From: a virus
Length of the DNA stretch: 64,000 nucleotides
IMG/VR virus record: IMGVR_UViG_3300042402_003740
Span: 1 to 64,000 of that record
Direction: 5' to 3' (one strand)
Shown: in pieces, positions 25,492 through 62,850 of the stretch
How positions within the stretch are numbered: the stretch's first letter is position 1
Layout of the letters: each line of letters opens with the position of its first letter
Notes under the pieces: model-generated
What the model was told of the DNA's origin: nothing
The model's database searches: none
Seen by the model: only the letters and a program-made list of their open reading frames with translations
Made by a program: the position numbers and the translations under genes

Positions 25492-26745
25492 CTATACTTT
25501 CCAGTTTTTCGGCAAATTGAAATTCTTTCTTGAGAAATCTAGTCGATCTACGAGTTTATATGCACGGTTGTTCATTCGGTTCACCACCACGAACCCTTCG
25601 GGGGGTGACGCTGTATATGTTCCGTTTTCTTGTGTAAATGAATCTAAACGCATCTTGGTCCGGCGGAGCCTGTCTATAACCAAAAGTTTGGCTTGTGAAA
25701 TGAGGAGGTGCAAGGCAAAGAGGCTGTCGTATTTGTTAGAATTTGACTCTATAGAGTCTAGCAAGGCTTTGGCGGCGGCAGTTCTTGCTTGTCTTGCATC
25801 ATCCTTTTTCACACCAACAGCGGTCTTTTCTATCTTTTCTTTCATATAGGAAAGAAATCCGCTACTGGAGCCTTGTGCAACTCCCTGTCGCACATTCGAA
25901 TTTATGTATATCATTAGATCGTCCACAAGACCCTTACTTTTCTGTAAAGAGTCCAAGAATTTTGCAGATTTCGCTCCTGTTCTTTCTATTTTTGCAAGTA
26001 GTATCTGTATTTCTTTCTTTTCTAAGGGATTCGCAGGGAGAGAGCAGGAACCTGTACCATCAGATCCCCCCTGTAGATTTGCATCAATAATCCACGCAGA
26101 AGCATTAGACTTCAAGTATGATATGTCAGGAGCAAAAGAAGGCGATAGGCTTGCAATCGTATCACCAGTGTACTTTGTATGAAAAACAACACCCATTTTT
26201 GCCTTTGCTATCTCTTTACCGATAGAGGAGTCGGCAGGAATGGCATAGGTAAGGGTGTTTGGGCGAAATGTAAGGTATTTTACTCCGTGTATCTCTTCGG
26301 TTTTGAGATCCTCATTTGTGAAGAGCATATCTCCCTGAAGAATTCCACGAATTCCAGAGTTTTTTAAATTTTTCAGAGCAATCTTTAGTTTTTCATTTAG
26401 ACCAGGAACAGGGTGGTTTTGGTCTATGTCTTTTGGTGTATAATTTATCTTTGGAGTTTTATTGAAAAGAGACTTTGTGGCAACAAAAAACTTACCATTT
26501 TCAGGATTTATTCCAACAATAATGGCAGGAGCACCGTCAAATTTTGTTGTAACACAAAAAGAAGCCTCTGCTTCATCCGAAAGTTCCAATACTTGTCGTA
26601 AGTAATCTGTCGCTGTCTTTATGCCAGAGGAACCCTGTAAGAGTATTGTGTCTTCGATGTGGGTAAGATGGGTAACACCACCAGAAGCCTTGTCTTCGGC
26701 TTCCTGTAATAGCAGCGTTTCCCCAAATTTAGTAAATGATAGCAT
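25492..26745 (-). CDS. DUF6267-like protein, nucleotidyltransferase/ligase fold
   Basis: A 417-residue protein resembling a family of T4-like phages annotated as DUF6267. It has THIEDTILLQGSSG near residue 27, then VTTKFDGAPAIIVGINPENG (~66-85), the K-x-D-G site of the covalent nucleotidyltransferase (DNA/RNA ligase, capping enzyme) superfamily, then FFVATKSLFNK and GIRGILQGDMLFTNEDL (~132-148). The lysine may be adenylated, but I do not know any substrate. The N-terminus MLSFTKFGETLLLQEAEDKA has a leader-like start and an L-Q-E-A site, suggesting a packaged head protein. A TAAATA-type late promoter lies ~20 bases upstream of the ATG. Confidence 0.7.
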   Translation of the reverse strand: MLSFTKFGETLLLQEAEDKASGGVTHLTHIEDTILLQGSSGIKTATDYLRQVLELSDEAEASFCVTTKFDGAPAIIVGINPENGKFFVATKSLFNKTPKINYTPKDIDQNHPVPGLNEKLKIALKNLKNSGIRGILQGDMLFTNEDLKTEEIHGVKYLTFRPNTLTYAIPADSSIGKEIAKAKMGVVFHTKYTGDTIASLSPSFAPDISYLKSNASAWIIDANLQGGSDGTGSCSLPANPLEKKEIQILLAKIERTGAKSAKFLDSLQKSKGLVDDLMIYINSNVRQGVAQGSSSGFLSYMKEKIEKTAVGVKKDDARQARTAAAKALLDSIESNSNKYDSLFALHLLISQAKLLVIDRLRRTKMRLDSFTQENGTYTASPPEGFVVVNRMNNRAYKLVDRLDFSRKNFNLPKNWKV

Positions 26746-36499: not shown

Positions 36500-36827
36500 T
36501 GGAGTCGGGGGGATTTGCACCCCCGTCCAGAACCACATCAAAGACAAACTTCTACGGAACCTAGTCCGTGTTCTGTACAGCATCGGGACACGGACATCCC
36601 TTTGCAGTTTGCGAATCGTTTAGTTCAACAGCCTTACGATTCCTATGGCAGTCTATCCGATGGTTTGGGAGGGGTAGATATCGGAGTCTCTACCCCTCCC
36701 TTGCCGCTTCAAGCAGCGAGACGAACTGTGTTAGCAGTTATTGTGTGGTCGATTTTATACAGAGCCGTTCGACCAACTCTGGTGCGCCGTTTGTCTCCTA
36801 CTTAGCCTGTCGAATCTACTCGACCCC
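36500..36827 (-). ncRNA. ssrA: tmRNA (ssrA) with tag ANTVRLAA
   Basis: A 328-base transfer-messenger RNA that would free stalled ribosomes and tag their products. The 5' end GGGGTCG pairs with CGACTCC at the 3' end (one G-U), followed by discriminator A; the 5' part contains the conserved GATTCGACAGGC. Pseudoknot 1 is visible: CAGAG/CTCTG interleaved with TGGTCG/CGACCA. The tag frame at 36735-36709 follows AATAACT and reads GCT AAC ACA GTT CGT CTC GCT GCT TGA, giving ANTVRLAA, which ends in the usual LAA degron. A GC-rich hairpin with arms GGGAGGGGTAGA and TCTACCCCTCCC forms part of the later pseudoknot region. The T loop is TGCAAAT, not the usual TTC type. The 5' end is the base directly after the gp32 stop codon, so maturation must depend on cleavage of a shared transcript. 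Confidence 0.92.
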
Positions 36828-45547: not shown

Positions 45548-45904
45548 CTAGAATCTTCTTCTTTTTATTCTCTTGCCTATTCTTCGTGACCTTGCTGTTT
45601 TTCTGTTTATTGAGGCTTGCTTTCCTCTTCGCTTTCTAGCAGCCCTACGGAGTTTCATTTTCTTTCTACGAAGAACAGCGGCAGGAATACGACGAATTTT
45701 GCCTTTTACAAGAGTGTACCCTTTTCTTCCTGCGGTCTTGCCTCTCTTTATCTTTCCACCACGAACACGAATAATTCTTCGGACTCTCTCTAGAAGATAC
45801 TCACAATCTGCCTCTGCTGCTTCTAGAGTATCTTCAATGATACATTCATCATCTTTTTGAAGAATTTCTGCCTGTTCGAAAATGAAACTCTTGTATGATT
45901 TCAT
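45548..45904 (-). CDS. Basic, protamine-like head protein with leader
   Basis: A 118-residue protein in two parts. The N-terminus MKSYKSFIFEQAEILQKDDE matches the leader shared by the operon (M-K-x-Y-K-x-F-I-x-E). After ~45 acidic residues the second half is extremely basic (KIKRGKTAGRKGY, RRKKMKLRRAARKRRGK, ending RRIGKRIKRRRF). Cleavage after the leader or near LERVRR would free a DNA-condensing basic peptide. I infer a packaged DNA-binding internal protein. It overlaps the next upstream gene by four bases. Confidence 0.65.
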   Translation of the reverse strand: MKSYKSFIFEQAEILQKDDECIIEDTLEAAEADCEYLLERVRRIIRVRGGKIKRGKTAGRKGYTLVKGKIRRIPAAVLRRKKMKLRRAARKRRGKQASINRKTARSRRIGKRIKRRRF

Positions 45905-48198
45905 CTTTTCAACCGTTTTTCCACTATAGATGAAGCGAGTTTTGAGACTTGTTCATTCGTACTACTCTTCTTTCTCCACCCTCCACCTAGCCGTTTGTAC
46001 AGTTTGGAAGCCCATGCGTTGGAATATGCTGATGGGTGGACATCAAAGCCCTTGCCATCGTTTGGACCTGTGATGGTTTCTCCACCGTGTTCCATAGAGG
46101 ATATGCGTCCCGCCACAAGGTCTTGCACTTTGCCCCATAACTCTGGATTTGTTGGCTCGTTTTCTGATGCCTCTCCGAGGATATCGTTAACACTCTTGTC
46201 CGAACGCCACATCTGGCAAGACCAGTATCGTGCCTTCCACTTTGGACCAACATCATCATCACAAGAGTGACGAGAACGGAAAGCCTTTAGACGGTCGGGA
46301 TCATCACGCTTGATGCTCATGTTAGGATCACCAAACCGAACTTTAACAATATTTCCATTGTCGTTCTTTGTATATACAGCAAACTTCTTCTTTTCTCCTG
46401 GTGTACGGAAAGGCTTGTTTAGTGGCTTGCCCTCACCGTCCTCTTCAGTTATTGTCAATCCTGTTTTATTGTCACGAAGAGCACGCTTTATCATGTCTTG
46501 TACAGTTTTGATATCAGCAGAGAACTCCGCAACAATTCCTCGTTGCTTGTTGTGTTCTTTTTTGTCTCCTGCTTTCTTTGCTTCGTAGGCTAACTTTTCG
46601 TGTTTCTTGATGAGGTCTATAAGGTCTTTGATTGCTTGTTTCATTTCATCAACGGAAACCTCTTTGCCCTCTTGAACCTTGTTAACACCTGTGGATACAC
46701 GAACTGGCTCTGCTCCACCACCTGGTTTTCCTTCTCCTTTTTTGCCCATTCCTGCCTCCCTTTGTGCAGAACGCTTGCGACGAACAAACGATGCTATGCC
46801 TTCTTTGCCTAATTTTTGTGCTTTTTCGGGAGATAGGCAAGCGGCATATGCTTCCCCTTCATCCGCATCTCCGCATTTTCCTATTCTTTCACCCTTGCTG
46901 TTGTAACGATCCCAACCTGGTGTACCATCGGCACTCTGTCGGAACCATTTACCTAGACCAGAGTCACGATAGGTTTCTTCAATCTCTTTTCCTCTGCAAT
47001 GAGCACGCTGCGAGAAGCCTTTTGGATTTTCACAATCAATAGAATCCTTGTACTTCTGTGACCACTTTTCATTCAGAACCTTGTCAACAATGGTCTTGAC
47101 AGTTTCCACGACCGCAGGATTTTTAGGAGTTTTCTTTGTGGGTTTCTGCTGTGGTTTCTTCTCTACAGGTTTTCTGTCAGGATTTCTTCTTCTTGGTTGT
47201 TCTTGTGTTCCTATACCAGAGAATACCTTTGCGTCTTGTTCGCTCTTAAAATATCTTACGCCTTTGACATTACCCACAGATCCAGATTGGTTCTTTGCAC
47301 CAAATCCTGTTTTTGTTTGCCAAACATCGCCTGGTTTTGCTTGCATTGCAACCGTTGCCATTCCCTTTTTCTCTTTGTCTGTTGGAGTAGGCGCAGCCGC
47401 TCCTGTTGCATCTGTTGCTTTTTTGGTTTTAGTCGCCCCTGTTACACCTGTGGTTGGTGCAGCGGCTCCGGTACCACCTGAAGGCGATGTAGCCGCCCCT
47501 GTAACACCAGTTGTACCAGAGGTGGATTTGTCGGTTGTAGGAGCGACAGGCTTGCCTTTACCTTTTTTAGCACCGCTAGATTCCTGTTCTGCTGCGGCCT
47601 TTGCCCGGTCACGCATTCCTACCCAACCTTTGTCGTTTGCTTCAAGCCATGTTCTGCTCTCTTTTTGAGCGGTATCAACTCTCGCAAGGCGACGATCAAG
47701 TGCTTCGATTCTGTCGTAGTCTGGCATGGACGATGATTCTGCTTCTGCTTTTCTTGCTTGAAGTCTTTGTCTTGATTGTTCCAAGAACATTGCATGGGCA
47801 CGCTGATCGTATTTGTTTTCCGATGGCTTGAACTTTGCAGCATAGTCGGACTCTATGGACTCAAGTTTGCTCATGTTTTCGACGGCAATTTTGCGACGCT
47901 CTTTTTGCATATTAAAGCGTGCTTCCAGTTCTGTTGTGTCTCCCCCTGCTTGCTTTGTCAATTCTATGTCAGAACGAAGAGTCTCCATTTCTGAACGAAT
48001 CTCTTTTTCATTCGATGCAGCGATCTCATGTGCCATTGAGAATCTTTCACGGGCAGCACTAGGGCAATTCTTGTCCAATTGAACACCTGTGACTCTACCA
48101 GAGGCATCGCCAACAATCTTTTCTACGATAGGCGTTCTTAATAGTCTGCCTACTAGAAACTCTATTTCCTCTATGAGTTCAAGAATTTGTGGTTTCAC
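45901..48198 (-). CDS. 765-residue multi-domain head protein (DUF6321/DUF5872-like parts)
   Basis: Order of parts: helical coiled N-terminus (1-215), Gly/Thr/Ala linker with GTTGVTGAAT-type repeats (~220-275), a short globular part (GVRYFKSEQDAKVF), basic linker, then VLNEKWSQKYKDSIDCENPK (~L-N-E site) leading into GLGKWFRQSADG..GWDRYNSKGERIGKCGD (DUF6321-like), a helical part, then FAVYTKNDNGNIVKVRFGDP with SCDDDVGPKWKARYWSCQMW and finally SKLYKRLGGGWRKK (DUF5872-like). These pieces recur in phage head and prohead-core proteins. It looks like a second polyprotein with internal L-N-E and I-T-E sites. Confidence 0.65.
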   Translation of the reverse strand: MKPQILELIEEIEFLVGRLLRTPIVEKIVGDASGRVTGVQLDKNCPSAARERFSMAHEIAASNEKEIRSEMETLRSDIELTKQAGGDTTELEARFNMQKERRKIAVENMSKLESIESDYAAKFKPSENKYDQRAHAMFLEQSRQRLQARKAEAESSSMPDYDRIEALDRRLARVDTAQKESRTWLEANDKGWVGMRDRAKAAAEQESSGAKKGKGKPVAPTTDKSTSGTTGVTGAATSPSGGTGAAAPTTGVTGATKTKKATDATGAAAPTPTDKEKKGMATVAMQAKPGDVWQTKTGFGAKNQSGSVGNVKGVRYFKSEQDAKVFSGIGTQEQPRRRNPDRKPVEKKPQQKPTKKTPKNPAVVETVKTIVDKVLNEKWSQKYKDSIDCENPKGFSQRAHCRGKEIEETYRDSGLGKWFRQSADGTPGWDRYNSKGERIGKCGDADEGEAYAACLSPEKAQKLGKEGIASFVRRKRSAQREAGMGKKGEGKPGGGAEPVRVSTGVNKVQEGKEVSVDEMKQAIKDLIDLIKKHEKLAYEAKKAGDKKEHNKQRGIVAEFSADIKTVQDMIKRALRDNKTGLTITEEDGEGKPLNKPFRTPGEKKKFAVYTKNDNGNIVKVRFGDPNMSIKRDDPDRLKAFRSRHSCDDDVGPKWKARYWSCQMWRSDKSVNDILGEASENEPTNPELWGKVQDLVAGRISSMEHGGETITGPNDGKGFDVHPSAYSNAWASKLYKRLGGGWRKKSSTNEQVSKLASSIVEKRLKR

Positions 48199-48449
48199 TG
48201 TCTTCCTTTCAAGTAGTTATGCACAGAGGAAAGATAATCTGCTGCCTTGGTGATCTTGGACTGTACCCATGCCTCAAGTTCCATATCTGAAGAGAGCATA
48301 TCCGATATAATACTGGCATGGTCAGAGATGTTCTTTAGTTCTCCCTTTGCCATATCTACTTCATCTCCAGGTGCATCACCTGTGGTGCTTGGATTTTCAG
48401 TCAGTATTTTGATAATTTGCTCTTGCAGCCGCTTGTTCTCATCTTGCAT
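48195..48449 (-). CDS. 84-residue helical virion protein
   Basis: MQDENKRLQEQIIKILTENP is a coiled coil ending in an L-T-E site. The rest (DMAKGELKNISDHASIISDM, then LEAWVQSKITKAADYLSSVHNYLK) matches a short domain common in phage head and core proteins (E-L/M-E-x-W-V-Q-x-K-I-T-x-A-x-D-Y). It overlaps the 765-residue gene by four bases. A CCTAAATA box lies ~22 bases upstream. Confidence 0.6.
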   Translation of the reverse strand: MQDENKRLQEQIIKILTENPSTTGDAPGDEVDMAKGELKNISDHASIISDMLSSDMELEAWVQSKITKAADYLSSVHNYLKGRQ

Positions 48450-48528
48450 AGGAAGCCCTCCGTGTATGTTTATTTAGGCTTTTTGCTAGTGAGGCGAGTT
48501 CTGTAATGTATTGGTGAAATGTTTTCAT
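48439..48528 (-). CDS. 29-residue leader-only mini-gene
   Basis: ATG 48528 overlaps the stop of the upstream gene (ATGA) and its own TGA overlaps the start of the next gene, so it fills the operon gap exactly. The product begins MKTFHQYITELASLAKSLNK, matching the M-K-x-F-x-x-Y-I-T-E leader of its neighbours, with a short basic tail ending RRASYAR. It may be a packaged peptide, a decoy substrate for the prohead protease or a remnant of a lost cargo gene. Confidence 0.6.
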   Translation of the reverse strand: MKTFHQYITELASLAKSLNKHTRRASYAR

Positions 48529-49202
48529 ACTGCTACTTGATCCATTAACCATTGCGTGATGATTCTATCATCGCCGCCAAATTCATCTTTATTGCAAAAT
48601 ATAGTCTTTAGCATTTTAACTGGCTTATAGGAGATTATCTCTCTTTGATATGAAAATTGCCCTGCGAGTCTTGGTATGTTTGTATATTTGTCTGGATTCA
48701 TAAAGAATGAGTTCCGAGAGCGTTCAAGGTCAGCAATAGCAAGAATATGATAAGACTCTTTGTTTCTGCGATACATCTTACCACCAAAATCTTCCACAAG
48801 TTTGGGAAGAGCAGCGAGGTCTACAGTCCATGAAGAAACTACATTCCTTATGTTCGTATATGTGCCTCCACGGACTATTCCCCTATTTCCGCTAACAGAT
48901 ATATTAAAGTTGCTCTTCATTATGTCCACAGGTAAATCAGACATCAAGCGATATGCATATTTGTATGATTTTGGCACACGAAGAATATCAGCGTGTTTTC
49001 CTGCTTTTTGTGCTGCAATTAATTTTGGTAGTTCTTTAACCAAAGCAGCATCTCGCCCTCCAAAGTAGTGCTTTTGGAAAGCCTCCCAAGCATCTTCTTC
49101 ATCCTTTGTGTTTTTCTCTGGTGGTTGTACAACATCTGTTCGCTCTGGAGCGAACAGCACATTTCCATAGTCTTCTTTCAACCATCGTTTAAGAGATTTC
49201 AT
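48525..49202 (-). CDS. ADP-ribosyltransferase-like head protein (third)
   Basis: A 225-residue protein starting MKSLKRWLKEDYGNV. The R-S-E motif set can be seen: KYAYRLMSD (R85), NVVSSWTVDLAALPKLVEDF (S124-W-T) and FSYQREIISYKP (Q186-R-E188). The Q-x-E form is that of arginine-specific enzymes. T4 packages the ADP-ribosyltransferase Alt, which modifies host RNA polymerase on entry; I infer a similar injected effector. It overlaps the nuclease-like gene by 14 bases. Confidence 0.55.
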   Translation of the reverse strand: MKSLKRWLKEDYGNVLFAPERTDVVQPPEKNTKDEEDAWEAFQKHYFGGRDAALVKELPKLIAAQKAGKHADILRVPKSYKYAYRLMSDLPVDIMKSNFNISVSGNRGIVRGGTYTNIRNVVSSWTVDLAALPKLVEDFGGKMYRRNKESYHILAIADLERSRNSFFMNPDKYTNIPRLAGQFSYQREIISYKPVKMLKTIFCNKDEFGGDDRIITQWLMDQVAV

Positions 49203-50232
49203 CTTTTTCCTTATTTTCGTGCATTAGGTTCGCATATTTTCCCTGATCTGCGATCCAGTCTTCAATGTCACCCATCTGCTGTCCTGCATCTTTCAGTTTT
49301 TTCTTCAACTTTTTCTTTGTCTTTGCTATTATTCTAGAAACAGCAGATGCTCCACTTCCAACAAGTTTCTTTACACCCTTGACCAAAGCCGTACTCTCTT
49401 CCATAGAGTTTTGTCCATTTAGTGCTTTGGATAGACCATTAACAGCAGACTCATAATTATCAAGAGAAATAGAAGACTTTGCTCCTGCAAGTTTTAGTCT
49501 CCCCTGTACACGATATCCAACAGAACGATAGGGCTTACCGCCAGATCCTGCTGGTCCTGGACGCATCTCTATGTCGATGTCTCCCTCAAGCATGGGAACC
49601 CCAAGACCCAACACATCATTGCCTGTATGGAAGAGTCCCATTCCTCCAATTTGAATGTAATCCACATTCTTCTTCTGATAGTGTTGACGAATCCATTGTG
49701 CATTGTATCGTATCTTCTTGTTTGTTGGAATAATAAGTCCCGCTTTCTTGGCGGCTTCCCAATCCTTGTTCTTTACCTTTAGTGGGAAGCCCAATCCTTC
49801 TTCAGTATCGTAAAAAGGATCGCCAAGAGAAGAGAAGTGGTCCAGGAGTTTGTCAAGATACTTTACAACAGGGATAAGAGCATTAGAGAACATCTTCACA
49901 TCTTCTTCTTTGATTTTGGTAAAATCAAAACGGTCTACAAGACGATCAGGGAATGACCCAACGAACCCGTCTGCATCTCGTTCATAGTTAATAGATGTAC
50001 CGCCCATCTGTGCGTTTCCGTCCATCTTGATCTCCATGTTAATGGTTTGACCATTGATGGTAAAAGAAGCATCTCCGGATCCAGCAGATGAAAATGCTCC
50101 ACCAGCACTCTCTATTCTCTTGAAATTAGGATACTCTTTGGCGAGTCTGTCCATGACAGCCTCTACCTTTTTCTCATAATTCACTCCACCCATTCCTACA
50201 GTTTCTGTGATATATTCTTTGAAAAGTTTCAT
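49189..50232 (-). CDS. PD-(D/E)XK nuclease-like head protein A
   Basis: A 347-residue protein with leader MKLFKEYITETVGMGG (I-T-E site). GGAFSSAGSGDASFTINGQT then INMEIKMDGNAQMGG place D54, E67 and K69 in a PD-(D/E)XK pattern. Later VDYIQIGGMGLFHTGND and a C-terminal KKLKKKLKDAG follow. Its paralogue lies just upstream (50369-51160). I infer a nuclease-type internal head protein, perhaps acting on host DNA after injection. Its ribosome site (AGGAG) is in the 3' arm of a hairpin. Confidence 0.65.
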   Translation of the reverse strand: MKLFKEYITETVGMGGVNYEKKVEAVMDRLAKEYPNFKRIESAGGAFSSAGSGDASFTINGQTINMEIKMDGNAQMGGTSINYERDADGFVGSFPDRLVDRFDFTKIKEEDVKMFSNALIPVVKYLDKLLDHFSSLGDPFYDTEEGLGFPLKVKNKDWEAAKKAGLIIPTNKKIRYNAQWIRQHYQKKNVDYIQIGGMGLFHTGNDVLGLGVPMLEGDIDIEMRPGPAGSGGKPYRSVGYRVQGRLKLAGAKSSISLDNYESAVNGLSKALNGQNSMEESTALVKGVKKLVGSGASAVSRIIAKTKKKLKKKLKDAGQQMGDIEDWIADQGKYANLMHENKEKDEIS

Positions 50233-50238
50233 CTGTTG

Positions 50239-50264
50239 CTCCTGAATTGATGTTTATTCAGGAG
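50239..50264 (-). promoter_or_regulatory. Hairpin sequestering the ribosome site
   Basis: On the mRNA CTCCTGAAT pairs perfectly with ATTCAGGAG (nine bases, eight-base loop), burying the AGGAG that serves the ATG at 50232. This could switch translation of the nuclease-like protein A. Confidence 0.65.
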
Positions 50265-50278
50265 TATGTAGGCTTGGG

Positions 50279-50305
50279 CTATTCTATAAAAGGAGGAGAT
50301 TGCAT
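50279..50305 (-). CDS. Possible 8-codon leader peptide MQSPPFIE
   Basis: A GGGAGG site (50317-50312) is placed six bases before ATG 50305; the frame MQSPPFIE ends in TAG at 50279, just upstream of the hairpin. It may be a translated uORF that controls opening of the hairpin. The 136-base gap also contains the TAAATCC...GGATTTA inverted repeat (50331-50364). Confidence 0.35.
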   Translation of the reverse strand: MQSPPFIE

Positions 50306-50368
50306 ACCATACCTCCCTGTATGTGTTTTCTAAATCCTATAATATCTAGGATTATTTGGATTTAGAGA

Positions 50369-51160
50369 TCATTTTATAAGATGAGAGAGTGTTTTCACCG
50401 CTGATTCGTAGTCATCAAGAGTGTGTTCCATTTGCACCATGCTGAACTGTATTCTTCCTTGTACTCTTAATCCAACACCACGAACCAAACCATATCTTGA
50501 AGGCTTTGATCCAGAAGCACCTGCTCTGATTTCAACACGAATATTTCCATTCAAAAGAGGAACAGGAAGATGTAGTGGATTTTTACCAGTATGAAACAAT
50601 CCACATCCTCCTATCTGAATATAGTCTACACCTTTTGAAAGATAGTGGTTTCTTATAAAACTAGCGTTTTCTTCAATAAAAGCATTTATTGGTTTTATTA
50701 GACCTCTAGAAGTAGCAATGCTCCATGCCTCTTTTCCCACTACCATTGGAAACCCTTCTATGTTCTGATGGACCTCAAATGGATAAGATGCTTTTAGTTC
50801 TCCAATTAGTTTTTCTATTGCGTCTGATTTTGAATTCAAGACTGCACGATATATGTCTATCATTTCTGGTTCTATTCCCTCTGACTTTAGGAAAGAAAAT
50901 CTTTCTTCCTTGGGAAGGGAAGAACGATATCTCACAGAGGTTCCTCCCATCTGTGCCTTTTTGTTCATTTTTATTTCAATATAATATTTCTGCCCATTTA
51001 TTTTTAGAGTGAGATCTCCTGATCCTGCACTAGAAAAACCTCCACCCACATCCTCTAGAACAGAAAGTTTTGGAAAGTTTTCTGACACCTTTTCACATAC
51101 GGATCTAACATCTTTTTCATACGCTAAAGATTTTTGTGTTTGTTTTGTTTTCTCTTCCAT
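50369..51160 (-). CDS. PD-(D/E)XK nuclease-like head protein B
   Basis: A 263-residue paralogue of protein A: GGGFSSAGSGDLTLKINGQK (D49), IEIKMNKKAQMGGTSVRYR (E62, K64) and VDYIQIGGCGLFHTGKNPLH are shared, as is the C-terminal DDYESAVKTLS region. It lacks the leader; its N-terminus MEEKTKQTQKSLAYEKD is basic. Gene duplication and divergence are evident. If A is packaged, B may be an intracellular partner or inhibitor. Confidence 0.65.
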   Translation of the reverse strand: MEEKTKQTQKSLAYEKDVRSVCEKVSENFPKLSVLEDVGGGFSSAGSGDLTLKINGQKYYIEIKMNKKAQMGGTSVRYRSSLPKEERFSFLKSEGIEPEMIDIYRAVLNSKSDAIEKLIGELKASYPFEVHQNIEGFPMVVGKEAWSIATSRGLIKPINAFIEENASFIRNHYLSKGVDYIQIGGCGLFHTGKNPLHLPVPLLNGNIRVEIRAGASGSKPSRYGLVRGVGLRVQGRIQFSMVQMEHTLDDYESAVKTLSHLIK

Positions 51161-51166
51161 TTTGTT

Positions 51167-52792
51167 TCATCCATTTGGATTTCCAAGCATTTGCTTTAGG
51201 TGTTTCTTTCCACCTATTGCCCGAACATATTGTCCGTTGCCTTTCCACTCTATTTCTTTTCCACGAAGTACTCTACGAACAATAGACTCATCGTCTACGA
51301 CTGGCGCACCACGGGATATAAGTATGTCGAGTATTTTTCCGCTTGCTTCGCCATAACTCCCCTGTGTCTTGAGAATGTCTACGGCTTTCTTCAGCACCTG
51401 TCGCTTGGCTTCGGCTCCACCATCGGAACCAATTGTTGTCATCTTCTTGCCGAAAAGTGTGGTCTTTGAGAGTATAGCCGCATCCACATCATCGGGTTCG
51501 TCTGTGTCTATGACATCGGTGATATTGTTGTCCGCAGGAACAGAGTCGGCATTGGGAAAATCAGGATGACCACCGACAGGAGCATAGGCGGCATTGACGA
51601 TATCAAAGATGTCTCGCTGAACATCAGTGTTCTTACGAACCTCTGCGGTTGCCAGAGATTTCCACTGGTCTTTATTTCGCACAACACCACGCCCTGCCTC
51701 TGCAATGAAAGTCTTGAATGAAACGATGCTCTCGCCTATGACATCATAGATGCGGTAGCCCGGATACTTGCGCTTTAGTTCTGCAAATATTCTGTCAAGT
51801 CCACTACTAGAGAATTTTGCCCCGTCTTCGCTTGTGGCACTAATGACCTTGCGCTGGTGGTCAATTCTTCCCTGCACAACAGGAGTAACAGAGCGTTCAA
51901 TCTTCAGCAACTCTGGAAAGACATCCTCATGGGTATCACGAACAGGGTCTTTTGGACTGCGTATTGTTACACGGGTCATGCCTTTTGATGGCTTTATTTC
52001 TGATGAAGCAATCCACAGTTCAGGAATCTTGCCCCCTGTTGATACTCCCCATACCTTTTGACGGATACGCTCCATCTCCTGCTCTTGGTCTTTTTCATAT
52101 GGTGAAACGGAGTGTCCGTAGTCAAGATATGCACCCGCAGTATCAACCATGTCTCCAACAATATCAGGGTGCATTTTCAATACATCACGCACCACTTGTT
52201 CTGTTTCCCGTTTTGTCTTCTTTACTGTATCCCTAGTGGATTTCTTGCGGGCTTCGCTCTCACGACTCCATCCAAGCGCATCGGTAATAATATCCTTGTG
52301 ATCGAATGCAAGGCGTGGAAGACGCTTCACAGAAATCCACTTTGCATCAACAGCATCATCCTGTCCACGCACACGCTGACCCATCTCTGCGGGAAGAGTG
52401 ATGGTGTATGCATACGAGATTGACCATGCTGTTTTCGTATCACGGGGATCTCGACCGCCTCCCTTGTATATTCCAACCGAACGCAATTTCGAGCGCATCT
52501 CTGCTGGAATCTTCAACCCTGTCTCTTCCTCTAGTTCACGGAGTGCAGCATCGGCAATGGATTCTGTCTGTCCTGCCTTCCACTCTCCTCCTGCCTTTGC
52601 GGTGGTGTTTACGAATCCACCTGGTATTGCCCACTTTCCGCCTTCGGTCTTGCCAGGTTTACGCTTGATGAGCAGTACCTCAAGTCCTCCATCTTTTGCA
52701 GGACGGAATACCACAAGATCTACCGTTGGATTTGCTCCTGTATAGCGGTAGCCCTCTTTGGCTTCGGTGATGAAGTGTCTAAAGTCTATCAT
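51167..52792 (-). CDS. Nudix hydrolase fused to a second leader-cargo unit
   Basis: A 541-residue protein. Start ATG 52792 (ATGA overlap with the gene upstream) gives leader MIDFRHFITEAKEG. Residues ~20-170 are a Nudix hydrolase with WAIPGGFVN and the box core ESIADAALRELEEETGLKI; substrates might be nucleoside-diphosphate derivatives such as ADP-ribose or NAD(H). A second part follows (~170-350). At ~356-367 VSFKTFIAEAGRG repeats the leader motif inside the chain, and the last 174 residues are homologous to the 185-residue protein next door. So it is a fusion of two leader-plus-cargo units, likely cut at I-A-E/A. Confidence 0.75.
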   Translation of the reverse strand: MIDFRHFITEAKEGYRYTGANPTVDLVVFRPAKDGGLEVLLIKRKPGKTEGGKWAIPGGFVNTTAKAGGEWKAGQTESIADAALRELEEETGLKIPAEMRSKLRSVGIYKGGGRDPRDTKTAWSISYAYTITLPAEMGQRVRGQDDAVDAKWISVKRLPRLAFDHKDIITDALGWSRESEARKKSTRDTVKKTKRETEQVVRDVLKMHPDIVGDMVDTAGAYLDYGHSVSPYEKDQEQEMERIRQKVWGVSTGGKIPELWIASSEIKPSKGMTRVTIRSPKDPVRDTHEDVFPELLKIERSVTPVVQGRIDHQRKVISATSEDGAKFSSSGLDRIFAELKRKYPGYRIYDVIGESIVSFKTFIAEAGRGVVRNKDQWKSLATAEVRKNTDVQRDIFDIVNAAYAPVGGHPDFPNADSVPADNNITDVIDTDEPDDVDAAILSKTTLFGKKMTTIGSDGGAEAKRQVLKKAVDILKTQGSYGEASGKILDILISRGAPVVDDESIVRRVLRGKEIEWKGNGQYVRAIGGKKHLKQMLGNPNG

Positions 52793-53346
52793 AGTGGGTT
52801 TCCTACCATCATCTTTGTCATCCGTTTTCCACCAGAGAAGGTTCGGGTATACCAGCCATCGCCTTCCCATCCATCCATCTTGCCGTGCCATTCGAACTCT
52901 ACCTTTGGGTCACTCTTGACGATCTTCTCTACACGCTTTGGATCGTTGATAGGCTTTACTCCCATGCCCATGAGTATCTGTGCGGGTCTTCCTGATATTT
53001 CGGTATAGTTCCCACGAACAGAGAGTATATCCTTTACCCGCTTCATCATCTGACGCTTCGCTTCCTGCGAACCGTCTGTTCCCATGCCGTGTATAATTCT
53101 ACCTTTACCCCTTTGCTGTGTGAGTATGACAGCATCAATGGCAGAATCATCATCGGTATCTATGACATCAACATCATCGGTTCCCACAGGATCAGAAGAG
53201 GTAAACTGCCTATGTCCCGTAGGAAACTGTGAGTATACAGACTGTAGAATCTCTCCAATCTGCTTGGCAACATCGGTGTTTCCCTTTACCTCGTTGTTCG
53301 AAAGGGTAGACCATTTTCCCTTGATGTAGCCTTTAAAACTCTTCAT
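52789..53346 (-). CDS. 185-residue head protein, paralogue of the Nudix fusion C-terminus
   Basis: MKSFKGYIKGKWSTLSNNEV, then DVDVIDTDDDSAIDAVIL, GMGTDGSQEAKRQMMKRVKDIL and a W-rich end (WHGKMDGWEGDGWYTRTF). The same order occurs in the last 174 residues of the neighbour (VIDTDEPDDVDAAIL, GSDGGAEAKRQVLKKAVDIL, GKEIEWKGNGQYVR). Leader M-K-S-F-K-x-Y-I is present, but without the usual Glu. Function unknown. Confidence 0.65.
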   Translation of the reverse strand: MKSFKGYIKGKWSTLSNNEVKGNTDVAKQIGEILQSVYSQFPTGHRQFTSSDPVGTDDVDVIDTDDDSAIDAVILTQQRGKGRIIHGMGTDGSQEAKRQMMKRVKDILSVRGNYTEISGRPAQILMGMGVKPINDPKRVEKIVKSDPKVEFEWHGKMDGWEGDGWYTRTFSGGKRMTKMMVGNPL

Positions 53347-54749
53347 TCAATTCTTTCCATTTTTTCAGGCATATCCGAACCCAAGATGTCTTGTAGTTCA
53401 TCAAATACCTCGTTGTACTTCTTTACAAGTTCAACCCATGTTTGGTTTACATATGCCTTTGCAGGAGTTTTTGTACCGATCTTTACAACCCGTGTAACTT
53501 CTGTTTCTCTTCCAACAGAGTTTTTTGTTCCTAATTTGTTTGCAAACCATTCAGAAAAGATACAGCCATCATCTGTAGGCATGGTGTAAACAATGGGTAC
53601 ATTCATGCCCTCCATTATTTCTTTGTATGCATAATCCATTGTTCTAAGTATGGAGCGGACGATACTCTTTTTCTCGGATTTTGATGCGGCTTTGAAACCA
53701 TTTGCCTGTTTGAGAATGAACTTAAGTTCTGGTGATGGGAGTACCGATACCGATCCACCAAACAAACCTTCTTGTGTTGCGAAATTGGCTGCTACTGCTG
53801 GTTCTGCTGCCCAACTCTGTATGGCTCTGTTCGCCTTGTACTCTACAGGAACACCAACATATGTTTTTGCCTTCTTTCCACTACCGATTTCCAATAGGTC
53901 TTTGGATTTTAGCAATCTATCCAAGGGTAGGATTCTTTTTGCAACACTACCGTCAACTCCTATTCCACGCCATACCACACTAACAGTTGGTTCGAATTCG
54001 TTTGGATAGTCTTTGACACATTTCTTGATAAACTCGAAATCTGCAACCATCTTGTTGTCGGCGTGTCCATCACTGTACATTGCATCTCCACCTACCCAGT
54101 CGCTAACACTCATCTCTATTTCGTCTTCTCTTTTGGTGTTCTGTTCACGGCTTCTGTATTTTCCCTGCTCTATTCCAAATACTAGACGCTGAAACACCTT
54201 TGTGCATGGGTTTTTGTTGAATTCTTTTTCCTTCTCTCTTTTCTCTTTGATTTTACCCTTTTGGCCTTCAAGTTTCTCAATCGAAGTCTCTATGGACTTT
54301 CTCATCTTTGTATTCTCTTTTTGCCACTTGGCTAGACCTGTCTTTTTTATCTGATTGACTCTGCTTGCAGGAAAGTCCAGAAGAGATCCAGACCTGTCGT
54401 CAAATCCCAACTGGCGCACATTATCCTTAAAGTTGCCAATAAGCGGATAGACTGCTGGTTCCAATCCAATTCCTTCATCAAAGAACAGTCTCACGAGGTC
54501 TAGTCCTGACTTCATTACACCTCTAAACCACTTACGCTCTTCCTCCTTGGTCATGTCAGAGAACCAAGGAGGAAGATCTCCAATCTTTTTGGATGCCTCT
54601 TGGAGTTCTCCAATGGCTTCACGAAGAGAGCCGCTCCGCTCCCCTGGCGGTTCGCAACCGCAACGGGCAATGGCATCCCGCACGGATTCTCCCGTGTCGG
54701 TATCCACTCCACGAAGAACATCAAGAACTATGGCTCTCCATGACCGCAT
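53343..54749 (-). CDS. Alt-like ADP-ribosyltransferase head protein (first)
   Basis: A 468-residue protein, start MRSWRAIVLDVLRGVDTD. The C-terminal half shows the R-S-E transferase triad: SVVWRGIGVDG (R261), AIQSWAAEPAVAANFA (S312-W) and GRETEVTRVV (E415-x-E417). Between lies a helical and basic region (KGKIKEKREKEKEFNKN). This is the layout of mono-ADP-ribosyltransferases such as T4 Alt, a packaged enzyme that modifies host RNA polymerase. GGAGG precedes the ATG; SpeD is the neighbour. NAD+-dependent modification of a host protein after injection is inferred. Confidence 0.7.
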   Translation of the reverse strand: MRSWRAIVLDVLRGVDTDTGESVRDAIARCGCEPPGERSGSLREAIGELQEASKKIGDLPPWFSDMTKEEERKWFRGVMKSGLDLVRLFFDEGIGLEPAVYPLIGNFKDNVRQLGFDDRSGSLLDFPASRVNQIKKTGLAKWQKENTKMRKSIETSIEKLEGQKGKIKEKREKEKEFNKNPCTKVFQRLVFGIEQGKYRSREQNTKREDEIEMSVSDWVGGDAMYSDGHADNKMVADFEFIKKCVKDYPNEFEPTVSVVWRGIGVDGSVAKRILPLDRLLKSKDLLEIGSGKKAKTYVGVPVEYKANRAIQSWAAEPAVAANFATQEGLFGGSVSVLPSPELKFILKQANGFKAASKSEKKSIVRSILRTMDYAYKEIMEGMNVPIVYTMPTDDGCIFSEWFANKLGTKNSVGRETEVTRVVKIGTKTPAKAYVNQTWVELVKKYNEVFDELQDILGSDMPEKMERIE

Positions 54750-54752
54750 GGG

Positions 54753-55142
54753 TTATCCTCCGTAGGCTACGCCCCGCACAAAGAAGTGGTCTTCGTGACT
54801 GGTGAATCCAAAGCACTCCCGTGCATACTCTATGACAACTGCTGGATCAAACTTCTTGCAGGAGTACAGGTCGAGGGTAATGAAATGGGTGGGTTCAATC
54901 GAATGGATCTGTATGCCACTCTCTATGAGGGGAACCCATCCGCTCACTCCTGCCTTCTCGGGATACACTTCAACACCGTTTTGTGTTGGTGCATGGATAA
55001 CCACAGGCTGACTCATGCGTGTCATGCCGATTCGGTCCACCAGACGCTCAAGAAAGCGATAGGTCAACTCCATGTCATCGGCTGTGCCGGGCTTGCACCC
55101 GTACATATCAAGGTAATATGAATACCCGAAAGGTTTTTTCAT
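54753..55142 (-). CDS. speD: S-adenosylmethionine decarboxylase proenzyme
   Basis: A 129-residue protein of class 1B size. LIESGIQIHSIEPTHFITLD gives the autocleavage Ser75 (E-S, pyruvoyl precursor), His80 five residues later and YSC Cys95 twenty residues after the Ser, the same spacing as the Ser63/His68/Cys83 set of the bacterial enzyme. YYLDMYGCKPG is the N-terminal part. It supplies decarboxylated AdoMet for spermidine synthesis; polyamines can neutralise packaged DNA. The ATG overlaps the upstream stop (ATGA). ES-H of the family is ES-G here. Confidence 0.8.
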   Translation of the reverse strand: MKKPFGYSYYLDMYGCKPGTADDMELTYRFLERLVDRIGMTRMSQPVVIHAPTQNGVEVYPEKAGVSGWVPLIESGIQIHSIEPTHFITLDLYSCKKFDPAVVIEYARECFGFTSHEDHFFVRGVAYGG

Positions 55143-55972
55143 TCGAGTGGACTCCCATCCATGTAGAGGTTTCTACAGACCCAGCCGTAGTCGCCTTCTT
55201 CCATCTTCTTCTGGGCAGTGTTCATTCTGTCTTTCATCATTCCGAGACGCTTGTCCTGTAGGAACTTGATGTGGTCTTCAACCATTTTGATGCTTTTCTT
55301 CCAACTGTTCATGCATTGGATTGCCTCACGCTTTTCGGATGCGCTTTCGTGCATAGTCTCCTCGTATCCCATAAAGGGTCTTGGCTTCTTGTTGCAATCC
55401 TTGCCTTTGCATGGCTTTGGCTTTGGTTTGCCCTTTCCACCCTTCATAGGCTCGACCACGGCATCGTCACCGTACATACGGGAATCTGTTTCGTGGAGAG
55501 GGGCTTCTGATTCTTTCAGGGAGTTTCCTTCCTGAACGGCACGGTATGCCCTTGCCAGTGATTCCAAAAGGTCGGCTTCGGTGCGGTCGGTCTGTACAGA
55601 ATTTGCAGGAGCGGGTGGAACCCCGCCTCCAAGAATGGTCTGCACCATCTGTGCTGTTTCGCTCTTTGCTATGCGCTCAAATTCGTTGTTTGTCTCCATC
55701 GCTCTACCTTCCTTTATTCCTAGTTTATTTAGTGCTGCTTCCCGTTGTCCTATCCCTGCGAGTGCCTCTCTTGGCGACTTGAAGTGTCCTACAGGGACCT
55801 GTGAATCGTCTGGAACTCCACGCCCACTGGTGTCGCCCTTGTAGAGCAGGAACGCTCCAGGACTAGGCTCATGGAGAAAGTACCAGTTCTTCCCAGAACG
55901 GGTCTTCCAGCCCATAACAACACCCATGCCCTGGTTTAGTCCTGCAATAACTGATTTTTGCCATTTATTCAT
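55139..55972 (-). CDS. 277-residue head protein, unknown
   Basis: MNKWQKSVIAGLNQGMGVVM, then GKNWYFLHEPSPGAFLLYKG, an Arg/Ala middle, a Cys-rich basic segment (KPKPKPCKGKDCNKKPRP) and a C-terminal helical part ending YGWVCRNLYMDGSP. Possible protease sites are NKLGIKEG, APLHETD and TMHESAS. It is coupled to SpeD by ATGA overlap. I recognise no family; the operon suggests a packaged protein. Confidence 0.55.
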   Translation of the reverse strand: MNKWQKSVIAGLNQGMGVVMGWKTRSGKNWYFLHEPSPGAFLLYKGDTSGRGVPDDSQVPVGHFKSPREALAGIGQREAALNKLGIKEGRAMETNNEFERIAKSETAQMVQTILGGGVPPAPANSVQTDRTEADLLESLARAYRAVQEGNSLKESEAPLHETDSRMYGDDAVVEPMKGGKGKPKPKPCKGKDCNKKPRPFMGYEETMHESASEKREAIQCMNSWKKSIKMVEDHIKFLQDKRLGMMKDRMNTAQKKMEEGDYGWVCRNLYMDGSPLE

Positions 55973-55973
55973 T

Positions 55974-56948
55974 TCATTTTACTCCGTATTGCTTGTCTAT
56001 TGATGCCCATTCACCCTTGCAGAAGTCTACGACTGCCTGTATGTAGGCGGTAATCTCGTTCGGGGTGATCTTGCCCATAGAGGGGTTGAAGCCGCTGCCT
56101 TTGCCCAGGCGACCCACACGCTCCATCTTGCCGATGCTCTTCTTGAAAGCCCTGGCAATGGCATCAACACGGGCAGGATCGAATTGCTCAGAAGTGCCGT
56201 CGTTCCTGCCGTAGTACTGGTTTGACCCGTTCTGTAGACCCGAGAGCACGGACATGACCATCTCTAGGCGGCTCATTGCCATGTCGCCGCTCTTCCAGTC
56301 TTTCAAGACCTCTTGTGCATAGACAAGCCACTCCTTGCGGTTCCTGAAACTCTCTGGCATCATGCGAAAGTGCTTCTGTGCCATTGTCTCGGGCTTGCCT
56401 GGTTTCTTCTCGTTTCCCCCAGCCTCGTCCAGTTCGACCGATTCTCCTACAAACTTCTTGCCCCGACCGCTCTTGAGGAATCCGTGTAGCCATGCCTGTG
56501 GATCTTTGCTGCCTGGATAGGTCTGTGGCAGTGGTTTACCGTGCAGTTCTCCGGTGATGCCCCCAAAGTAGTCTTCGTATTCCATAAAACCCACCTTTTT
56601 GCCACCCTTCAGGATGTCATAGTGGGTTGTGGACTGTGTGCCGTCCTCTGTTTTTTTCTTTTCCACCTTGGTTTTCTTTAGAGAATACTCCCCGACACCT
56701 TCGTGCAACCCAAGGGATTCCTTCACCACCTGTATCCCCTTGTAACGGCTCCGCACCAATTCTGCACCTGTAAGAACATCCACAAGATCCTCATAGTGGT
56801 AGTCTGTTGCAACAGCCTCGCTTGAATAGGGTCCCGCTACCTTCATCTTGCCACCAGACTTGTACACGGCATAGTACCCTTCAGGGTCAACCTTGCCTAT
56901 TCCTCTGGCGGCTTCGTCTAATCTTCTAATATCCTTGAATCGCTTCAT
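55974..56948 (-). CDS. 324-residue leader head protein with module shared with the polyprotein
   Basis: Leader MKRFKDIRRLDEAARG ends in an L-D-E/A site; a second, SLGLHEG, follows at ~90. Residues ~95-180 (YDILKGGKKVGFMEYEDYFG, GITGELHGKPLPQTY, SGRGKKFVGESVELDEAGG) repeat the module at ~551-653 of the 892-residue protein. A helical domain follows to the end. It overlaps the next upstream gene by four bases. Predicted products are two or three small head peptides. Confidence 0.65.
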   Translation of the reverse strand: MKRFKDIRRLDEAARGIGKVDPEGYYAVYKSGGKMKVAGPYSSEAVATDYHYEDLVDVLTGAELVRSRYKGIQVVKESLGLHEGVGEYSLKKTKVEKKKTEDGTQSTTHYDILKGGKKVGFMEYEDYFGGITGELHGKPLPQTYPGSKDPQAWLHGFLKSGRGKKFVGESVELDEAGGNEKKPGKPETMAQKHFRMMPESFRNRKEWLVYAQEVLKDWKSGDMAMSRLEMVMSVLSGLQNGSNQYYGRNDGTSEQFDPARVDAIARAFKKSIGKMERVGRLGKGSGFNPSMGKITPNEITAYIQAVVDFCKGEWASIDKQYGVK

Positions 56949-57814
56949 CTCTGCTTCTCCTCTAAATATTGGCTGTTGTAATCTTCGAATTTACGCAGTA
57001 CCGCCTCTCTGCCGTCAAAAACCTGTAGTTTTTGCTCTGGTGTAAGCAGCCGCCAGGCACCTGGTGACATTAGTGTTTCCCTACCATCGGTTGTTTTTTC
57101 TGCTAGTGGAACATAGCAGCGGCACTGTATTGGGGTCTTCTCTAATCTTACAATTTCAGACTCTGCGGGGTTTCCAAAGTGGACAAGATTAAGGCTTTCG
57201 TCCGGGGATATCTTGTACTCTAGAACAAAGTGTATGCGTTGCTGTTTCATCTGGTCAGACCACCAACTGTCTGTGACCCCTGTAAAGTCGCCTGTTGCAA
57301 ATCCTAGTGCCACTCTCTGTTCTGTCGTCCATGACTGTGCAACCGACCGGGCCTCGTAGCGTAGGGTTCCCTCTGCACACTGTAGTGGTCTTTTGCCCCT
57401 GTACAGGGTTGTGATTCTTTCAAATTTGAATGCATTGGCAAATCTCTTCACTCCAAACCCTTCGCCACGGTACACATTCCCGCTGTATCGTAGCCACGAT
57501 CCAGTCTTTCCACACCCCTGTATCATTCTCTTTATACGAAGAACAAGATCTTCAGGGGTGTAGTCCCGTTGAGCCTTGAATCCCATCATCCACTTGTTCA
57601 TGGTGTCTGCAAGCCCTGCAATCTCTTCGTTCTTTGCCTCTTTTGCTGCCCTCTCTATCCATTGCCAGCCTTTGCCTCTAAAATGGTCAATAGGAGAACC
57701 CTGAAACAGAGGAGGATTTGACCCGCCCAAGAGATGACACAACCCACGGGAGAAATCTATCTCTCCTCCACTCTTTGACTCTAGTATCTCTATGAATTGG
57801 CGGTAGCGTTTCAT
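56945..57814 (-). CDS. Alt-like ADP-ribosyltransferase head protein (second)
   Basis: A 289-residue protein with leader MKRYRQFIEILESKSGGE (I-L-E site). Triad: SGNVYRGEGFGVKRF (R116), RSVAQSWTTEQRVALGFA (S161-W-T) and GNPAESEIVRLEKT (E218-x-E220). Its order and spacing match the 468-residue protein at 53.3 kb, so two transferases of different size sit in one operon. NAD+ and an arginine or other host residue are the inferred substrates. Confidence 0.72.
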   Translation of the reverse strand: MKRYRQFIEILESKSGGEIDFSRGLCHLLGGSNPPLFQGSPIDHFRGKGWQWIERAAKEAKNEEIAGLADTMNKWMMGFKAQRDYTPEDLVLRIKRMIQGCGKTGSWLRYSGNVYRGEGFGVKRFANAFKFERITTLYRGKRPLQCAEGTLRYEARSVAQSWTTEQRVALGFATGDFTGVTDSWWSDQMKQQRIHFVLEYKISPDESLNLVHFGNPAESEIVRLEKTPIQCRCYVPLAEKTTDGRETLMSPGAWRLLTPEQKLQVFDGREAVLRKFEDYNSQYLEEKQR

Positions 57815-57815
57815 A

Positions 57816-58265
57816 TTAGTCGTCTACAGGTTCGTCGTGACCAGAGTGTGGATTGTACCGGGTCAGAGGGGTTCTGCGCCGTGACCGCTCACGCTCACGC
57901 TCGTCTCTTTCCCGCTCCCGCTGCCCCCGATCCCGCTCCTCGGCATCACGGCGGCTCTGGGCTTCACGCCCTGGTCGCTTCTTTCCCTCTACCCAATCGC
58001 TTGCATCGCTCCAGTTATCGAAATAGCGGAATTCGTCCTCCCACCGTGCACGGTATCGGGTTCCCCCACCTGTCTCTACCTCGTCAACCGAGCCGCTTCT
58101 CTGCCTTTCCTTCCCCTGGCGGTCTGCTGACTCCTCACCAGAGGTCTGTGCCCTCTTTGCCTTTTCGATTCCTAACTTGCGTCCAACCCGTATGGCTGTG
58201 TCACGGACTATGCCCTCTTTCAGAGTCTTGTCTACAGTTCTTCTAAATTCGGTGTAGTCTTTCAT
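57816..58265 (-). CDS. 149-residue leader protein with Arg/Asp/Glu-rich tail
   Basis: ATG 58265 follows AGGAG and gives MKDYTEFRRTVDKTLKEG, a leader variant with an L-K-E/G site. The C-terminal third is a charged repeat (RDAEERDRGQRERERDERER), probably a long helix. The middle (WEDEFRYFDNWSDASDWVEG) is aromatic. It is the first gene of the leader operon and may be a packaged protein. Confidence 0.6.
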   Translation of the reverse strand: MKDYTEFRRTVDKTLKEGIVRDTAIRVGRKLGIEKAKRAQTSGEESADRQGKERQRSGSVDEVETGGGTRYRARWEDEFRYFDNWSDASDWVEGKKRPGREAQSRRDAEERDRGQRERERDERERERSRRRTPLTRYNPHSGHDEPVDD

Positions 58266-61969: not shown

Positions 61970-62425
61970 ATGGCGCAATCAGGACAGGCTCTGTTGGAGA
62001 ACGCACGGGTGCAAGAGTTCCTGTCCCTGGTGCGTTCACAGTGCCGCAAGTGTAATGTCAAATTCGTGCTTGCCGATGCGGAGTTTGTCGGCAGCAAGAA
62101 GCAAGGGGAGCAACTGCTTGGGTTCTTTTGGGAACCCTCGCTACACCGCAGGGCACCAGGCGAACTGCGTGTGGCAACAAAGAACCTGCCTGTAAGCGAG
62201 TGGATCGTTACCCTCGCACATGAGTACGCACACTTTCTACAGTGGTTCCGAGATGATCCTGTTTACCATTGTGACTCTTATCTGGAGATGGAGATCGCAA
62301 CAGAGCGTGAAGCATTCGAGATCCTGAAGCGTTTCAAGATCCCCATCAACTACGAAACGGCGAAGCGCAAGTCAAAGAAGTACATTGCGAAGATTCGTCG
62401 TGAGGAAAAGGAAAACACCCTATGA
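61970..62425 (+). CDS. Zinc metalloprotease-like protein (HEYAH)
   Basis: A 151-residue protein with TLAHEYAHFLQWF (HExxH, 84-88) and EREAFEILKRF, a possible third ligand. AAAGGAGG precedes ATG 61970. Family could be ImmA/IrrE-like or SprT-like; the length is short. It overlaps the lysozyme-like gene by four bases. Substrate unknown. Confidence 0.7.
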   Translation: MAQSGQALLENARVQEFLSLVRSQCRKCNVKFVLADAEFVGSKKQGEQLLGFFWEPSLHRRAPGELRVATKNLPVSEWIVTLAHEYAHFLQWFRDDPVYHCDSYLEMEIATEREAFEILKRFKIPINYETAKRKSKKYIAKIRREEKENTL

Positions 62426-62850
62426 ACAAGCGCAACATCACCATCATTACTCTCATCGTCCTCGGCATCCTCGCCTCGCTTGCTGCTGCGGTTCCCCCGC
62501 CCTCGGGCTACGACACAGATCGGATTCTCCATGCCATTCGTCTGACAGAGACTGGTGGTGAGCGTGACCCGGCGAATGCAGTGGGCGACGGTGGACGGGC
62601 GATTGGACCTTTCCAGATCCACCGTGGTTACTGGCAGGATGCACTTGAGCATGACCCGAGCATTGGTGGCGTGTATGCCGATTGCAAGAACGAAGAGTAT
62701 GCTCGTCGGGTCGTGCTGGCGTATATGTCCCGCTACTGCAAGGTGTGGACGGATGAGCGTGTTGCTCGTATCCACAATGGTGGTCCGGCGGGATGGAAGC
62801 GAGAGTCAACGCTAGGGTATTGGTCAAAGGTGCAGCGGCATCTTGACTAA
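62422..62850 (+). CDS. Lysozyme/transglycosylase-like protein with signal anchor
   Basis: A 142-residue protein: N-terminal membrane or signal-anchor helix (ITIITLIVLGILASLAAAVP), then a domain with HAIRLTETGGERDP (catalytic Glu candidate), GGRAIGPFQIHRGYWQDA and CKNEEYARRVVLAYMSRYC. This resembles destabilase/i-type lysozyme or SLT-type folds (G-P-F-Q-I-x-x-x-Y-W). As the only lysozyme-like gene in the window it may be the endolysin, released by a SAR mechanism, though the holin-spanin pair is 44 kb away. It is translationally coupled to the upstream protease gene. Confidence 0.7.
   Translation: MNKRNITIITLIVLGILASLAAAVPPPSGYDTDRILHAIRLTETGGERDPANAVGDGGRAIGPFQIHRGYWQDALEHDPSIGGVYADCKNEEYARRVVLAYMSRYCKVWTDERVARIHNGGPAGWKRESTLGYWSKVQRHLD

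Follow-up and report, generated by a model that had tools for sequence, protein, structure and literature searches.

A leader resembling the T4 capsid-targeting sequence heads unrelated proteins in an uncultivated T4-like phage

Background

An operon located at 45.5-58.3 kb of a viral DNA sequence (bases 1-64000, here called the window, of the 92,327-base IMG/VR record IMGVR_UViG_3300042402_003740) raises the question of why proteins with unrelated bodies should begin with variants of the same ten residues. The record encodes T4-type DNA polymerase, UvsX, helicase, primase, tail tube, baseplate hub, and DNA end protector proteins, and its source is therefore a T4-like phage, one that is distant and uncultivated. 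Within T4 itself, internal proteins IPII and IPIII share the start MKTYQEFIAE and IPI opens with MKTFKEF in the sequences retrieved; mutation of this leader has shown that targeting depends on residues 4 and 7 and processing on residues 8 and 10, and the gp21 protease cuts behind L/I-x-E (PMC9026906). A first-pass annotation of the window likened the operon leaders to this capsid-targeting sequence, and the likeness is borne out at the mapped residues: the window leaders, like those of IPI, IPII, and IPIII, have aromatic residues at 4 and 7, a hydrophobic residue at 8, and a glutamate at 10, and most of them end with an (L/I)xE site. As argued below, the leader very probably carries its protein into the prohead core, where it is removed by a gp21-type cut, leaving the cargo to be packaged and injected as the T4 internal proteins are.

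Specificity of the leader

To avoid circularity, a position-specific profile of leader residues 2-10 was trained on the T4 internal proteins, proteins of cyanophages S-CREM2 and S-SZBM1, and relatives, with no sequence from the record under study. Seven of the 2592 candidate starts scored in the record reach 8 bits. Five of these are operon starts, at 50232 (21.1 bits), 45904 (18.6), 52792 (10.8), 57814 (10.5), and 53346 (8.9); a sixth, at 86656 (MDTFKSFISE, 18.9), lies outside the window; and the seventh, at 14475, is a chance GTG within ribonucleotide reductase. The start at 49202 is next below the cut-off, at 7.0. A profile search of the kind that the first-pass annotation had proposed yields few high starts in the record, nearly all of them in the operon. 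The complete layout (aromatic 4 and 7, hydrophobic 8, E10) is present at 50232, 86656, 45904, and 52792 and is partial in the remaining leaders. The simpler aromatic-4/aromatic-7 pattern is found in 11 of 100 predicted gene starts versus 10 of 450 internal ATGs.

All nine leaders listed in the first-pass annotation are present, several in degenerate form and one at the head of an orphan reading frame. The list was incomplete, having passed over MKSLKRWLKE (49202), the weak MRSWRAIVLD (54749), an internal leader within the Nudix gene, and MDTFKSFISE (86656).

Spread of the leader over unrelated cargos

When the exact leader consensus was searched in viral contigs as a degenerate DNA pattern, at least 120 stretches were recovered, whereas a control using the same codons in scrambled order gave 0. 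The 79 cargos found behind these leaders fall into 22 unrelated clusters, with a single cluster of small proteins accounting for 48 of the 79. (The invariance of the leader residues among 21 cargo representatives carries no weight here, since it was imposed by the search pattern.) The earlier proposal that the cargos differ completely behind a shared leader is also upheld within single genomes: unrelated cargos share one leader in the window, in the next relative (G001), and in a more distant relative (G014). Different cargos in G014 are preceded by almost the same leader DNA, as if cargo genes had been exchanged behind a common leader.

Association with virion proteins

Cyanophage S-CREM2, for which 52 of the products of 219 genes are reported in the virion proteome (PMC10665884), was scored with a profile retrained without S-CREM2. 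The five highest leader scores among the 219 genes all belong to virion proteins (p=6.5e-4; p=4.4e-5 when restricted to genes outside the annotated structural set), namely a cytidylyltransferase (MKNFSSFLTE), gp13, a S-adenosylmethionine (SAM) hydrolase (MKDFDSFLEE), an APH-like kinase (MKRFDAFLTE), and gp136. The virion-detected cytidylyltransferase of S-SM1 likewise starts MKKFSAFLNE↓A, where the arrow follows the glutamate of the site (virion data, PMC3037559), and that of S-SZBM1 has a leader one residue shorter, MRFRQFIIE↓A. In the T4 stretches scored, high values are confined to the three internal proteins.

As a separate observation, the S-CREM2 virion protein gp12 (OR473000 7704-10313; L092), which is annotated as Cas9-like and has no Pfam match, contains a leader-like LRFASFMAE↓A at residues 17-25.

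Taken together, the leader layout, the recovery of at least 120 stretches versus 0, the 22 cargo clusters, and the association with the S-CREM2 virion strongly support the identification of this element as a capsid-targeting leader that is removed by the prohead protease. The following route is envisaged. Late in infection, the leader, by means of its aromatic residues 4 and 7, would bring its cargo into the prohead's scaffolding core, and a gp21-type prohead protease would then cut the leader off after the terminal (L/I)-x-E. The freed cargo would stay beside the DNA inside the head and pass into the host cell together with it. As the record is without head genes, we infer packaging, cleavage, and injection for this phage, the last by analogy to T4. 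Because unrelated proteins share the T4 packing tag, the phage probably injects a whole toolkit at infection; here this set would comprise a Nudix hydrolase, a basic DNA-binding-like protein, many uncharacterised proteins, and a SAM-lyase homologue from 86,656.

The operon and its cargos

All the operon genes given here lie on the (-) strand. The leader gene at 45548..45904 (MKSYKSFIFE) encodes an acidic N-terminal stretch followed by a very basic, Lys/Arg-rich C-terminal domain that appears core- or DNA-binding-like; a relative (L113) encodes a similar basic protein behind MKSFKQYLSE. Next comes a leaderless multidomain protein of 765 residues (45901..48198), whose C-terminal domain, phrog_7595, sits behind the leader MKTFKDFADE in relative G008. 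The leader MKTFHQYITE (48439..48528) heads an open reading frame of only 29 codons. A sister phage, which shares 97.5-97.8% DNA identity across this region, fills this slot with a complete leader gene (MKTYRRFITE, approximately 255 residues), and MKTFHQYITE is a leader left behind after loss of its cargo gene. It is followed by the leader gene MKSLKRWLKE (48525..49202), which has no cargo assignment, and by MKLFKEYITE↓T (49189..50232), whose cargo has no Pfam family over the cut-off and, from a GD...EIK pattern seen by eye, is possibly PD-(D/E)XK nuclease-like. A paralogue of this cargo, 42% identical, is leaderless (50369..51160); this protein could work inside the producing cell.

The gene at 51167..52792 (MIDFRHFITE↓A) encodes a Nudix hydrolase (NUDIX PF00293, E=6e-16) fused to a second domain, and between the two lies an internal second leader, VSFKTFIAE↓A (51698..51724). 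G001 also has an internal leader, LFKDFLVE↓A, at this site. The second domain is a paralogue of the adjoining protein, which has the leader-like start MKSFKGYIKG (52789..53346). Beyond it are MRSWRAIVLD, a weak leader (53343..54749); a leaderless SAM decarboxylase homologue (54753..55142; PF02675, E=7e-17); a protein (55139..55972) whose C-terminal part begins PLHE↓TDSRMYGDD; the leader gene MKRFKDIRRLDE↓A (55974..56948), which contains a module bounded by GLHE↓G and VELDE↓A; the leader gene MKRYRQFIEILE↓S (56945..57814); and the degenerate leader gene MKDYTEFRRT (57816..58265), which has its first LxE↓G at residue 17 and a charged, low-complexity cargo. The SAM decarboxylase homologue thus stands within the operon of a record that encodes a SAM lyase elsewhere. 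The idea that every operon gene bears a leader was rejected, since at least four (45901, 48195, 50369, and 54753) are leaderless.

Viewed by eye, the cargos of 53343-54749 and 56945-57814 are possible ADP-ribosyltransferases. Sequence comparison did not bear this out: neither protein has a Pfam, PHROG, or meaningful PDB sequence match, the PDB sequence search returning chance matches only. Structure models of 56945-57814 and of the nuclease-like pair gave predicted local distance difference test (pLDDT) values of 36 and 38 and were unusable. A search of isolate phages with three cargos and two modules gave zero matches, and PADLOC returned just weak matches of no meaning.

The cargos of the record that have family support are the Nudix hydrolase and the products of two genes outside the operon. 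One of these is the gene at 26.7 kb (25492..26745, (-) strand), a DUF6267 protein (PF19782, E=4e-98), to which the first-pass annotation had also assigned a leader. Its own leader, MLSFTKFGETLLLQE↓A, is degenerate, but DUF6267 homologues have clear ones (MLQYQNYLTE↓S and MKSFKQYLSE↓A). The other is the MDTFKSFISE gene at record positions 86656-87243 (L002:3656-4243), which encodes a SAM-lyase homologue (PF23780, E=3e-9) related to the SAM hydrolase of the S-CREM2 virion. In four further phages the SAM-lyase cargo retains its mature start, SSLSR or SSLAR, while the length of the spacer before it varies; leader-like starts precede this cargo in two marine viruses and in Campylobacter phage CP220. 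The homologue would be expected to blunt restriction-modification. Leader cargos of relatives include GNAT, HAD-like, HD-domain, and transglycosylase-like proteins.

A protein with predicted protease-site junctions

The leaderless protein of 892 residues encoded at 22687..25365 ((-) strand) consists of a cytidylyltransferase/NMNAT-like domain (PF01467), a series of small modules that varies and is joined at (L/I)xE↓[A/G/S] sequences, and a conserved C-terminal domain. It contains 9 [LI]xE[AGS] sites where 1.9 would be expected, an excess unmatched elsewhere in the record, and in relatives this statistic places known gp21 substrates high. Versions of the protein in relatives and here have 434, 575, 627, 882, and 892 residues, with constant end domains and differing middle modules, and turnover of the modules occurs at L/IxE junctions. 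The clearest case is provided by the sister phage, in which, despite approximately 97% DNA identity otherwise, one module is gone and another is present at L/IxE junctions. Furthermore, one module of the 892-residue protein, the one bounded by GLHE↓G and VELDE↓A, recurs in the leader gene at 55974-56948.

These results suggest cassette polyproteins, in which small modules are made as one chain with prohead-protease sites at the junctions and are cut apart in the prohead, and which phages evolve by gaining, losing, or swapping modules at those sites, even between strains that are approximately 97% identical. We give this proposal an even chance. If it is correct, module-string proteins with the same protease sites would probably be cut into separate pieces in the prohead. 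Somewhat doubtful, though still a serious competitor, is the explanation that the L/I-x-E junctions are ordinary acidic linkers, that the chain stays whole, and that cleavage is confined to N-terminal leaders. The motif is short, cleavage at these sites is predicted from sequence, and the protein has no leader of its own in this phage, all of which would fit an uncut chain. However, linkers of this kind do not readily account for the excess of sites, for the exchange of entire modules at these positions between near-identical phages, or for the placement of module edges, which lie a median of 3 residues from an L/IxE site versus 20 for random positions (many of the edges compared depend on one another, and some arose where unrelated modules were forced into alignment). 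Nor do they explain why the same cargo start is found behind a leader in one phage and behind an internal LxE in another: the TDSRMYGDD part that follows PLHE inside 55139-55972 stands directly behind the leader in G001 (MKTYSQLIAE↓TDSRMYGDD).

Weighing the packaging of the leader proteins

Several observations count against packaging by way of the leader. The leaders MKRFKDIRRLDE, MKDYTEFRRT, MLSFTKFGET, and MKSFKGYIKG are degenerate; the first three have lower profile scores, yet retain an LxE↓[A/G] site at residues 12-17, while MKSFKGYIKG has neither the cleavage glutamate nor such a site. Neither a gp21-type prohead protease nor a gp23 major capsid protein was found when the 92-kb record was searched; their absence is due to the record being a fragment. 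In favour of packaging, both (the protease of the S77 type) are encoded by G006, G008, and G014, which the polymerase brought to light as more distant relatives, and an LxE↓A site is present in the gp23 propeptide region of G008, G006, and S-CREM2. The start region of the G014 major capsid protein, however, is without an LxE[AGS] site. Since the 892-residue protein lacks a leader in this phage, its entry route into the head is unexplained. Finally, the S-CREM2 authors warn that their mass-spectrometry detections may include co-purifying protein (PMC10665884), and S-SZBM1 as a replicate of the S-CREM2 result is mixed: its best two leader genes, gp191 and gp192, are absent from its 30 detected virion proteins. 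Thus the concern that the motif might be equally common in non-virion genes is answered in S-CREM2 and less cleanly in S-SZBM1.

Among other explanations of the leader, the one that survives best, although it is unlikely, is that the leader is indeed a capsid signal and that most of the proteins, in the manner of T4 gp67 and gp68, belong to the core or scaffold of the head, helping to build the prohead and then being largely discarded, and are not injected effectors. T4 core proteins are gp21 substrates too; the products of 45548-45904 and of relatives L113 and L175 are short and strongly basic; and the dominant cluster of the exact-consensus sample is made up of small proteins. Yet other cargos are homologues of enzymes (Nudix, SAM lyase, GNAT, HAD-like, HD domain, and cytidylyltransferase), and the cargos turn over in a manner not expected of essential head parts. 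Replication genes of the source phage and G001 are 74-89% identical, whereas G001 has no counterpart for seven operon genes (45548, 48525, 53343, 54753, 55974, 56945, and 57816). On the favoured reading, the operon acts as a magazine of about ten genes whose cargo changes fast.

Considerably less probable is a destination unrelated to the capsid, such as a membrane, a cytosolic docking complex, or degradation. Short amphipathic N-terminal motifs can have other sorting roles, and a different destination gains some room from the inferred status of packaging in this virus; against this, the leader agrees with the T4 sequence at experimentally mapped residues, is linked specifically to virion proteins in S-CREM2, and ends in an LxE↓[A/G/S] that fits the gp23 propeptide site of relatives. 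That the resemblance is due to chance or to a translation-initiation bias toward MK followed by hydrophobic residues is scarcely credible, even though several of the listed leaders are too degenerate to be called alone, given the empty scrambled control, the leader DNA of G014, and the few high scores among the candidate starts.

Other features of the record

The window also encodes a Tubulin/FtsZ-family GTPase (18962-20185; PF00091, E=3e-11) that is 93% identical in G001, a transfer-messenger RNA (36500-36827; tag ANTVRLAA) that adjoins a cluster of four tRNAs, and a Destabilase-type lysozyme homologue (62422-62850; PF05497, E=1e-9). From window 56-64 kb to approximately 74 kb of the record the G+C content climbs to 0.52-0.58, returning to 0.43 near 76 kb; few clear long genes are present in this high-G+C stretch (to approximately 74-76 kb).

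Comparison with known systems

The principle of a targeting leader is already known in T-even phages (PMC9026906; PMC12373910). What appears to be new is its use for a large magazine that is partly enzymatic and for cassettes set apart by protease sites. In the open-access literature, capsid targeting meets cyanophage only through one reference title (subscription literature was outside the scope of the search). A ten-residue motif may serve as a predictor, from sequence alone, of head-carried phage proteins that reach the host as infection begins, and as such it directs attention to early proteins of anti-defence and takeover in uncultivated T4-like phages at large.

The leader also offers an explanation for enzymes of cyanophage virions. 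The virion proteins of S-CREM2, S-SZBM1, S-SM1, and S-SCSM1 include a kinase, a SAM hydrolase, and a cytidylyltransferase/NMNAT, and the cytidylyltransferase and SAM-lyase domains are homologous to those described here. In the passages covered, the cyanophage virion papers do not mention a signal for targeting, and two of these papers do not decide between carriage of the enzymes in the virion and co-purification; leaders were identified on S-CREM2, S-SM1, and S-SZBM1 virion proteins in the present analysis.

The closest known counterparts of the leader proteins are T4 IPI, IPII, and IPIII, which have the same aromatic 4/7 leader and L/IxE site, unrelated cargos, and a location in an accessory hot-spot of fast turnover, and which are inhibitors of GmrSD type IV restriction (PMC12373910). 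Unlike the T4 internal proteins, the cargos here are larger and partly enzymatic, form a magazine of some ten genes, and in places have leaders inside fused proteins as well. T4 Alt, a packaged ADP-ribosyltransferase, is a large head-carried protein that is trimmed by gp21 and injected, which recalls the two cargos that by eye may be ADP-ribosyltransferases. Alt differs in having a short propeptide, MELITELFDE, without the aromatic leader, and the cargos have no sequence match to Alt families.

For the 892-residue protein, the nearest comparison is with the polyvalent proteins (PMC5512222), which are likewise multidomain chains predicted to be injected with the DNA. Polyvalent proteins are described as single polypeptides, some of which have a built-in, self-processing peptidase (PMC5512222). 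The multi-module chain described here, in contrast, has small modules that are gained or lost singly and are divided by sites at which a prohead protease, a separate protein, would cut, which suggests that phages can shuffle their cargo as protease-separated cassettes.

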